Shown here in pieces: positions 27,626-30,465 of a stretch of 35,080 nucleotides of DNA (position 1 is the stretch's first letter; each line of letters begins with the position of its first letter). The stretch comes from Anaerovibrio sp. (GTDB lineage: Bacteria; Bacillota; Negativicutes; Selenomonadales; Selenomonadaceae), in the NCBI GenBank assembly GCA_017475925.1, contig JAFVER010000205.1, forward strand, positions 1-35,080, written 5' to 3'. The notes beneath the pieces were generated by a model. That model did no database searches. It was not told the DNA's origin and saw nothing but the letters and a program-made list of their open reading frames with translations. The position numbers were made by a program, and so were the translations under genes.

Positions 27626-27688
27626 TTCACAAGAAAGCCTTTATTTGTTAAAATACATGTTGAAGTGAATTACAGGAGGCTTTTTTAT

Positions 27689-28828
27689 ATGAAATGGGTA
27701 AGATTTTTATTAATCATGCTGGCCATGGTTTCACTCAATATAAATGTGTTGGAAGCCAAGGCTATAACAAGCTATCGGCCGGTGGTTACCTGGGATAAGG
27801 TAGCTGAGGCTGATTTGGTCACTTTATTTGGCCCGGCAACTGTTTCTCAGGAGCAAATGATAAGTTTTATATTGGCGCGCAATCCGGAGCCTAAAATCAA
27901 CTGCTCCATTGAGGAGCTGGTGGCGGCCTACTATAAAGAAGGAGATATTGAGGGCATCCGGCCAGATGTAGCGCTGTGTCAGGCGTTGAAGGAAACCGGC
28001 TTCTTCATGTATGGCAATGATGTCAGCTATCAGCAGAATAATTTCTGTGGCCTTGGAGCCACCGGCAACAAGGCACCGGGCTTTAGCTTCTTTACCCCTC
28101 AGCGGGGAGTGCGGGCCCATATCCAGCACCTGATAGGCTATGCTTCAAAGAATTTGCCTAAGCAGGAGCTTATTGATCCAAGATATGAGGTCTTGGTAAC
28201 GAAATATCCTCAATTCCATGGTACGGCGGTTTATTGGACAGATTTAAACGGTAAATGGGCAGTACCGGGAACCACCTACGGTCAGGATATTATTCGGTTG
28301 TGGCGGGAGGCCCAGTCGGACCGCTATGGTGATAGTCCGTTAAACAATGACCTTAAGGAGGCAGAGGCTAACCCTGATGATATTTCAGCCTGGCAGCGGG
28401 TATATATTACAGCCCGTCAGATGGGTAATTACAAGGAGGCTGTACGGGCCTGTAATGAGATTACCCGGCTGGACAAGTACAACGTAGTTGCCTTTATTAA
28501 TTGTGGTGATATACTCAGAGAATGGGGAAAAAACGAAGAAGCCCTGGCAGCTTATGATGCCGCCTTGGCCTTAAGGCCGAAAAAATATGATGCATTAAAT
28601 GGCAAGGCCTATCTGTTGGCCGCTAATGGATATAGGCAGCAGGCCCTTGAGCTTTATGATAAAATATTGGCCTCCAAGCCGGATGACAGTATTGCACTGT
28701 ATAACCGTGCCTGTCTCCTGGTGGCCTTGGGGAATGCTGAACAAGGCTCTGCTGAACTGAAAAAGCTGGCTAAGGCATATCCAAATAACGAGATTATTCA
28801 GAAAGCCTGGGCAGAGTGCCAGAAATGA
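27689..28828 (+). CDS. Exported glucosaminidase-domain protein with TPR repeats
   Basis: 379 residues. A signal peptide (about 1-24, ending LEAKA) precedes a GH73-like N-acetylglucosaminidase domain (about 45-205): the catalytic Glu is in CQALKETGFFMYG, followed by QQNNFCGLGATG and a RGVRAHIQHLIGYA segment, typical of peptidoglycan hydrolases. The C-terminal half (about 220-379) holds about four TPR motifs (for example EAVRACNEITRLDKYNVVAFINCG). The TPR part may place the enzyme in a complex or control access to the wall. ATG 27689 has AGGAGG nine bases upstream. A strong hairpin terminator follows. It likely acts in the periplasm on the thin murein layer of this diderm. Confidence 0.85.
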   Translation: MKWVRFLLIMLAMVSLNINVLEAKAITSYRPVVTWDKVAEADLVTLFGPATVSQEQMISFILARNPEPKINCSIEELVAAYYKEGDIEGIRPDVALCQALKETGFFMYGNDVSYQQNNFCGLGATGNKAPGFSFFTPQRGVRAHIQHLIGYASKNLPKQELIDPRYEVLVTKYPQFHGTAVYWTDLNGKWAVPGTTYGQDIIRLWREAQSDRYGDSPLNNDLKEAEANPDDISAWQRVYITARQMGNYKEAVRACNEITRLDKYNVVAFINCGDILREWGKNEEALAAYDAALALRPKKYDALNGKAYLLAANGYRQQALELYDKILASKPDDSIALYNRACLLVALGNAEQGSAELKKLAKAYPNNEIIQKAWAECQK

Positions 28829-29003: not shown

Positions 29004-29104
29004 AGAAAAAAGGCGGCTAATAACCGCCTTCCTGAAGGTCTGTGACGTCCGCCGTAATCAATATATAAGTGCTACAAAACGACGAGGCCACCCTTGACCT
29101 TATT
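29004..29104 (-). ncRNA. Orphan small RNA gene, about 100 nt
   Basis: On the minus strand this intergenic stretch has a complete transcription unit with no reading frame. A promoter at 29111-29139 points into it, and it ends at a terminator hairpin, AAGGCGG (29010-29016) with CCGCCTT (29024-29030), followed by a U-run. Within it AAGGTC near 29096-29101 can pair with GACCTT near 29035-29040, closing a central domain rich in GGC/GCC and GACG/CGUC pieces. No gene follows on this strand, so it should act in trans or as a stand-alone RNA. It is not 6S, SRP RNA, RNase P or tmRNA by size or motif. Rfam families restricted to Selenomonadales would be the first comparison. Confidence 0.7.
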
Positions 29105-29110
29105 GAGTAC

Positions 29111-29139
29111 ATTATAAGGCTATCAAAAGTCGCTGTCAA
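29111..29139 (-). promoter_or_regulatory. Consensus sigma-A promoter of the small RNA
   Basis: On the minus strand: -35 TTGACA (29134-29139), a 17-base spacer, then -10 TATAAT (29111-29116). Both hexamers are perfect, the strongest promoter in the window. Transcription should start near 29104. Confidence 0.85.
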
Positions 29140-29205: not shown

Positions 29206-30465
29206 TTATTGTTTATTATTGGTTGCTACAAAGCTGTCCATTAATTTTCCATCTGGCAGGAAGCATTTTACTGTCAGGGTAGACATAGTAGCCTCAAAGG
29301 TAAGATAATTATCAGTTTCCGGCTGGGGCAGCATAATTTTATCAAAGCGCTTGGTACGGGGCACATTGTAACGGCAATTACCAGCTACACCGGTATCTAT
29401 ATAAACCGGGCCATGGTCTGAGGGAGAAAAGTTGAAAATATGGCCATGCCGTCTATATGTATGCTGATGGGCGGTGAATACCAGGTCAATATTCAGCTGG
29501 TCAAAATATGGCATAAAGGTCCTTCCTACAATGTCAATATCTGCAAGGGGCTCATTGCTGTCAAGGCTGTCATAGTTTATTATGTCCTTGTGCATTAAAA
29601 TAACCTTCCATGGCTGAGCGGATTCCTTAATATCATTTTCCAGCCATTGGAGCTGTTCTGGAATCAACCCGGACTGTATAGGGTCAATTTCTTCAAATTG
29701 GGTGTTAAGGACACAGAAATGAACCGGTCCGCAGTCAAAGGAATAATAATAGCCATTAAATTTACTGCTGCCGTTTTCAGGCACAGTGAAATAACCAAGA
29801 TAAGCCTTTGGCAGACGGCATTTCCAATTTAAATCATAGGTTTCGTGATTGCCCATTACTGGTATAAAGGTACGTCCCGGCATGTAATCAGAAATAGCAT
29901 CAAACCATTGTCGCCATTGATAGGCTGCTTCACCGTTGTCAACCAAATCCCCCATGTTTATGAAAAGCCTAGTGTCCGGATTGGCTTCAAAGGCACTGGC
30001 TGCGACATTATGCCAGGTTACATATTCATCTGAACACTGGGAGTCCGGGAAAATAATCGCCTTTATGGAGCTTAAACCTGTGGTATTAAGTGGATACCAG
30101 GCTGTTTTGACTCCGTCCTGGATGATTTGGTATGTGTATTGAAGTGAAGGCTGAAGATTTTCTAATCGTACCTGGTAAATAAATATTTTTTCACCATCAT
30201 CCTCTAAGGCATGGCAATTTGCCTTTTGTATTTTTTCTTCCCCAGAGCTGGTTTTCAATACTATTTCGCAGCTGTTGTGATAATTTCGGGATTGCCACAT
30301 AATAACCCGTGATGTGGCGGGGTCAGTTGTTATGATTTGGCGGGGATAAAATATATCCTCAGCAGCTGGTGCAGCGCCAGCAAAGGAAAATTTTCCCATT
30401 ATGGCAGAAAAAAAGCTGAAGGCGGAAAGCCTTAGAAAAGCCCGTCGGGAAATTGTTTTTAGCAT
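29206..30465 (-). CDS. Tat-exported purple-acid-phosphatase-like metallophosphoesterase
   Basis: A 419-residue exported phosphoesterase. The N-terminus ISRRAFLRLSAF with a hydrophobic stretch and AGAAPA is a twin-arginine signal, so it is probably exported folded with its metals. A fibronectin-like N-domain (about 38-125) precedes the metallophosphatase fold. Metal ligands: PDSQ near residue 140 (replacing the usual GD), MGDLVDNG near 172, GNHET near 206, the LMHKD His near 294, and TAHQHTYRR near 338 (GHxH variant). Substrate is unknown; phosphomonoesters or nucleotides are likely. GGAGG lies six bases before ATG 30465. It is expressed apart from the HAD gene, which lies upstream of it on the same strand with a 94-base gap. 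Confidence 0.88.
   Translation of the reverse strand: MLKTISRRAFLRLSAFSFFSAIMGKFSFAGAAPAAEDIFYPRQIITTDPATSRVIMWQSRNYHNSCEIVLKTSSGEEKIQKANCHALEDDGEKIFIYQVRLENLQPSLQYTYQIIQDGVKTAWYPLNTTGLSSIKAIIFPDSQCSDEYVTWHNVAASAFEANPDTRLFINMGDLVDNGEAAYQWRQWFDAISDYMPGRTFIPVMGNHETYDLNWKCRLPKAYLGYFTVPENGSSKFNGYYYSFDCGPVHFCVLNTQFEEIDPIQSGLIPEQLQWLENDIKESAQPWKVILMHKDIINYDSLDSNEPLADIDIVGRTFMPYFDQLNIDLVFTAHQHTYRRHGHIFNFSPSDHGPVYIDTGVAGNCRYNVPRTKRFDKIMLPQPETDNYLTFEATMSTLTVKCFLPDGKLMDSFVATNNKQ

Follow-up and report, generated by a model that had tools for sequence, protein, structure and literature searches.

Does the intergenic stretch at 29,004 to 29,139 of this Anaerovibrio contig encode a small RNA of its own, and if so, of what kind? 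A first-pass annotation of the window (the whole stretch of DNA that was analysed, 35,080 nt) had proposed a stand-alone small RNA gene on the minus strand, running from a perfect promoter to a GC hairpin with a U-run. Both ends of the gene were found as described. The -35 hexamer TTGACA (29134-29139) and the -10 hexamer TATAAT (29111-29116) stood 17 nt apart on the minus strand (29139-29111), and a strong intrinsic terminator closed the RNA on the same strand (29033-29007), with a hairpin of 12 pairs, 5 of them G-C, leading into a T-run. The distance from the -10 hexamer to the terminator was 77 nt. From these positions, with the 5' end placed 7 nt past the -10 hexamer, a transcript of about 98 nt was predicted (29007-29104, minus strand).

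Apart from the promoter of the RNA gene, the window contained no exact TTGACA-N17-TATAAT. Promoters with up to two mismatches numbered seven, which is no excess over chance, as 25 of 100 shuffled sequences reached this number (shuffle mean 5.05). Across the window's own genome, 20 exact promoters were counted, against a single occurrence of the pattern read backwards, and four of the other 19 directly preceded RNase P, two tRNA loci and a T-box leader. Judging from its sequence, the consensus sigma-70 type promoter at this locus should give strong, mostly constitutive transcription.

The RNA gene was present as one clear copy per genome in all 16 Anaerovibrio genomes, and its control elements were conserved along with it. 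The TTGACA hexamer and the 17-nt spacer were kept in 16 of 16 copies, and the -10 hexamer read TATAAT in ten genomes and TATACT in six, so that the promoter scored 12/12 in ten copies and 11/12 in the six TATACT ones. Every copy had, after the core, a G+C-rich hairpin with a T-run behind it. On the window's side of the genus this hairpin read GGYGG...CCGCC, and elsewhere GGGTGGAA...TTCCACCC or GGACGAAG...CTTCGTCC (the automatic cut was placed within the hairpin in G001, G003 and G006 and returned no fold, the hairpin being evident from the sequence). As the hairpin sequence differed between clades and a terminator was found in 16 of 16 copies, termination appears to have been kept despite sequence drift.

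The surroundings of the gene were far less constant than the gene itself. The upstream gene, which shares the strand of the RNA and ends at 29206, encodes a calcineurin-like/purple acid phosphatase-type protein, and the -35 hexamer of the window starts 66 nt past the stop codon of this gene. To the left, a glucosaminidase-plus-TPR protein (27665-28828, plus strand) is convergent with the RNA, and the statement that nothing lies downstream on the RNA strand within the window holds. The phosphatase was found upstream of the RNA in 11 of the 16 genomes, and the nearest upstream gene in the remaining five (G001, G003, G006, G011 and G014) encoded a hotdog thioesterase, on either strand. Downstream, the convergent TPR gene occurred in G000, G008 and G010, a symporter-like gene lay on the same strand about 250 to 470 nt beyond the terminator in six genomes, a LacI-type regulator-like gene followed in G003, and reversed genes were found in others; in G011 and G014 the contig ended downstream of the RNA. 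From their translations, the symporter (AGCS-like) and the LacI-type regulator are presumably what these downstream genes encode. No downstream gene was constant over the 16 genomes. Because the flanking genes changed in identity and strand and the RNA stayed, we read it neither as a leader nor as the 3' product of any one gene, and the earlier view that the RNA is not a leader was borne out by a downstream gene differing by clade. As a separate observation, the glucosaminidase-TPR protein resembled the morphoprotein TftA far below the cut-off (108.4 against 500 bits).

The same comparison bears on whether there is a gene here at all. A chance promoter and terminator could have come to lie in a conserved 3' region of the metallophosphatase gene, as the short distance between the phosphatase stop codon and the -35 hexamer and the phosphatase upstream in most genomes would allow. 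The RNA was nevertheless present in the five genomes with no phosphatase upstream, and promoter, core and terminator occurred together in all 16, leaving this explanation very improbable.

The first-pass annotation had also stated that the RNA holds no reading frame, which was incorrect to the letter, as a 24-codon GTG frame with upstream purines starts inside it, but this frame was broken in 10 of the 16 genomes. A GTG or ATG codon at helix P2 (see below), with purine-rich bases upstream, was found in 16 of 16 copies, and a similar frame continued in six genomes (G000, G003, G008, G009, G010 and G011; for example, MASSFCSTYILIT in G000 and MASPFSRTYSLIAAYVI in G003). These features would fit a short mRNA whose product, beginning MAS[SP]F... 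in most copies, acts as a peptide alone or as part of a dual-function RNA. However, the frame was shifted in six genomes by a loop 7 nt shorter, was cut to 10 residues in three and to 8 in another, and gave peptides of 8 to 43 residues across the 16 copies. Since the RNA was kept where the frame was broken, the peptide is not the conserved product, and we consider a coding function improbable. No peptide was maintained among these sequences.

The first-pass annotation had recognised no family and had proposed a search of Rfam with cmscan, which likewise yielded no family at gathering score. With Rfam 15 at the gathering threshold, there were no matches in the window or in nine relative loci. 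Relaxed scans of three copies returned seven matches, all far below gathering. Just one of them, to wcaG in a single copy, covered the core on the RNA strand (14.5 bits, with gathering at 42; E 1.7). The 6S RNA family (RF00013) is likewise a free-standing small RNA gene and had no match at this locus; its model spans 187 positions, compared with a conserved core of 61 to 77 nt with three helices here. A separate 6S candidate was detected in 15 of the 16 Anaerovibrio genomes (E <=0.001), exceeding the gathering score in five of the 16.

Structured RNAs of the Selenomonadales or Negativicutes offered a second comparison, namely the gltD and ldh2 motifs, which passages of PMC8632094 place, without exception or nearly so, ahead of a single type of gene. 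By these descriptions, the Anaerovibrio RNA is set apart by its lack of a constant downstream gene. The main texts of PMC6429828 and PMC8632094 do not mention Anaerovibrio. In literature searches with most subscription papers and journals outside their scope, the matches listed included neither a description of this RNA nor a small-RNA paper on the genus Anaerovibrio.

All copies shared a structured core (29035-29101, minus strand) composed of three helices and an apical loop, matched in 16 of 16 genomes by two covariance models. The pairing of AAGGTC (29101-29096) with GACCTT (29040-29035), pointed out in the first-pass annotation, is real and forms the outermost helix, P1 (5' strand AAGGUC at 29096-29101, 3' strand GACCUU at 29035-29040), with changes on both sides in four of its six pairs. 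P2 joins GUGGC (29087-29091) to GUCAC (29042-29046) and contains one G-U wobble, identical in all 13 distinct sequences. P3 joins CGUCGU (29079-29084) to ACGGCG (29050-29055), with all of its cells paired (100%) and both-side changes in two of six pairs. The apical loop (29056-29078) carries an invariant UUU and an invariant AUU adjoining P3, around a middle variable in sequence and in length. Stacked on P3, the UUU and AUU strands might form U-U mismatches with a U-A pair closing them. Averaged over columns filled in at least half of the rows, conservation was 95% in P2, 92% in P3, 88% in the P2-P3 junction, 83% in the P1-P2 junction, 80% in P1 and 66% in the loop. A CU/NAC junction in the core was nearly invariant.

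The helices were supported by the way in which the copies differ. Over the 13 distinct sequences, 94.6% of 221 cells were paired in a count alignment (A6) that was fitted to the structure of the model and thus favours it, compared with a shuffle mean of 87.9, and none of 500 shuffles reached the observed value. Changes on both sides were found in 7 of 17 pairs over the same sequences (reached by 2 of 500 shuffles) and spanned 15 cells (0 of 500). Covariation scored 0.275, compared with 0.156 in shuffles (0 of 500). When partner columns were slid by 1 to 3 positions, pairing fell to 27-64%. The number of further pair types was not above shuffles, 92 of 500 reaching it. Three false matches (L051-L053) were excluded from the covariation counts, and P1 of G004 was set one place off in the count alignment.

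The phylogeny of the genus qualifies how many independent events these changes represent. Two deep groups within the genus emerged from the trees of a pair of neighbouring genes (14 rows in one, 11 in the other). G004 grouped with G001-type genomes against the rest and carried a long-branch warning in one tree. Changes in P1 fell mostly on one deep split of the genus. The P3 pairs at columns 22-63, 23-62 and 26-59 also varied within a group, which suggests more than one change event.

The window copy folded alone gave a z of -1.59, and 13 of 200 shuffles folded as well; its own fold is thus unexceptional, and structural support comes from the relatives. Minimum-energy folds of single transcripts contained P1-P2-P3 in six of ten copies, the other four differing inside P1. 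RNAalifold on ten copies recovered P2 and P3, with no pair showing both-side change, from an input alignment that misplaced P1. The first covariance model (R1) was built from ten copies, and its alignment misplaced the P1 3' strand in two rows; the second (R2) was rebuilt from the 16 Anaerovibrio copies.

Covariation across the Negativicutes had been suggested as a check on the proposed RNA, and a lack of conserved stems in relatives as grounds to refute it. The stems proved to be conserved, with both-side changes, among relatives within Anaerovibrio and not Negativicutes-wide, so that the proposal passes this comparative part of its own test. Of the 15 other Anaerovibrio genomes among the 60 searched with BLASTN (the window's own plus 59 relatives), nine gave clear copies (E <=2.4e-9); the remaining matches were 17 to 29 nt long. 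A search of 189 genomes of the family with R1 gave one match in each of the 16 Anaerovibrio genomes and three weak ones elsewhere (E 0.009-0.07), which were rejected as DNA with no promoter or terminator. A search of 380 Negativicutes genomes with R2 returned the same 16 copies and nine weak matches outside the genus (E 0.0019-0.046); eight of these lay within or started open frames and the ninth (L069) had a terminator-like hairpin inside an 80-codon frame, so that no convincing copy was found in the 364 Negativicutes genomes outside Anaerovibrio. Laxer filters on 40 genomes again gave the same 16 copies. They also let through nine more weak matches (E 0.009-0.95), two of which came from within the genus (G005 and G011); all nine were rejected, each falling entirely within an open frame of 206 codons or more.

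A contig scan with an exact pattern, too strict for more diverged copies, found nine stretches, all from Anaerovibrio, including A. lipolyticus DSM 3074, LB2005 and the strains RM50 and JC8. The stretch past the PRC-barrel gene was also searched in a further 17 genomes from the family, with some loci shortened by contig ends or by the range chosen; R2 had no match there at E up to 5. With filters off, R2 gave four matches of 10.3 to 10.5 bits on 13 of the 17 loci, and a promoter-plus-terminator scan gave four pairs, all unconvincing. This search is partial, because the RNA is not always beside the PRC-barrel gene even within the genus. As for mobile elements, the exact pattern had no match in IMG/VR and BLASTN against phage or plasmid records had none at E 0.01. 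The RNA family appears to be confined to Anaerovibrio as far as searched.

On this comparative evidence, the locus is probably a genuine, uncharacterised stand-alone bacterial regulatory RNA gene of about 100 bases. The proposal of a stand-alone small RNA gene agrees with its own promoter and intrinsic terminator, a frame that is not maintained and the absence of a fixed downstream gene. Lineage-specific small RNAs are common in bacteria, and such a gene is ordinary as a kind; what stands here looks like a real, new lineage-specific member of a familiar sort.

The compact core with conserved junctions directly before a terminator invites the thought of an orphan ligand-sensing RNA, in which a riboswitch-like aptamer would control its own termination and the short transcript itself would be the regulated product. 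However, P1 and the terminator did not overlap in predicted folds, so that no switch was apparent, and there was neither a constant downstream gene nor an Rfam riboswitch at gathering score. We give this explanation little probability.

The default reading is instead a free-standing, non-coding RNA acting in trans, because of the consensus promoter, the small size, the U-tail and the presence of Hfq in the genome. Hfq (PF17209) was detected above the cut-off in all 16 Anaerovibrio genomes, one of the hits being a 34-residue fragment at a contig end. The locus resembles Hfq-associated trans-acting sRNAs in being a free-standing intergenic gene of about 100 nt with its own sigma-70 type promoter and an intrinsic terminator with a T-run, in a genus that encodes Hfq; it differs from them in that no long conserved open seed, target or Rfam sRNA family was found. 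Under this reading, the strong and mostly constitutive promoter would yield a ~98-nt RNA folding into a three-helix rod (P1-P2-P3) and a terminator hairpin with a U-tail. Hfq would plausibly bind this tail and assist pairing between the RNA and mRNAs, and the RNA, acting by such base pairing in trans, would regulate post-transcriptionally. We consider the chances of an Hfq-assisted, mRNA-pairing regulator to be about even. If so, comparative evidence would define an sRNA family in the genus Anaerovibrio, and since this is an Hfq-encoding Bacillota genus, a universally kept sRNA would offer a convenient entry to Hfq-sRNA regulation in this branch.

The 12-letter complement of the 5' half of the RNA had 13 sites outside the RNA gene in the 16 genomes, compared with 22 for the reversed control, and the 14-letter complement of the 3' half had no site outside the RNA gene in these genomes. 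Twelve of the 13 sites fell within or beside an open frame of 80 codons or more. The only genes that recurred were one that we take to encode an Obg-like GTPase (two genomes) and one for a large repetitive protein (three sites in two genomes), the latter sites lying far inside the gene. Within these narrow exact-complement scans of 12 or 14 letters, no site recurred at a translation start. A seed would usually sit in the unpaired stretches, here the 5' tail and the middle of the apical loop, and these are what varies in this RNA; its most conserved letters lie in helices and not in an open seed.

The location of the conserved letters and the lack of a recurrent target in narrow scans make a protein-binding RNA the main rival. 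Such a structured RNA would work through its P2-P3 core, by titrating a regulator or as an RNP scaffold, rather than by pairing with mRNA. The high conservation of P2 and P3, the unvarying G-U wobble of P2, the nearly invariant CU/NAC junction and the UUU and AUU strands beyond P3, next to a loop of variable middle, are all consistent with it, as is the absence of a recurrent complementary site. Yet helices of five to six pairs could open for target pairing, the conservation may reflect folding alone, and the test for targets was limited to exact matches of 12 or 14 letters. We regard protein binding as less likely than the mRNA-pairing reading, yet as the likeliest of its rivals. That the RNA represents a new genus-specific class of structured RNAs, serving as a protein scaffold or decoy via its P2-P3 core and not by antisense pairing, is about as probable.

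Other features were noted at the promoter and elsewhere in the genome, beside the preferred reading as a trans-acting sRNA. A palindrome, GTATA-ATG-TATAC, occurred at the -10/start region (29117-29105 in the window, and the equivalent region in relatives) in 9 of the 16 copies, although neither the window's own copy nor any of the six with TATACT has it; it is possibly an operator in part of the genus. Among the other exact promoters of the window's genome, four (L133, L134, L140 and L143) were followed by 175 to 432 nt before the longest downstream ORF, had no Rfam match there and are possible further structured leaders or RNAs. Another (G000:C228:316-344) was followed, in the next 120 nt, by what is apparently only the 3' part of a tRNA, presumably of tRNA-Lys; ARAGORN called no tRNA at this locus, which may be what remains of a tRNA or an effect of the contig edge. 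The one at G000:C214:7283-7311 led into sequence resembling a dispersed repeat. On G000:C144 (1540-2093), a single perfect promoter lay upstream of an RNase P RNA and, farther along that strand, a c-di-AMP riboswitch.
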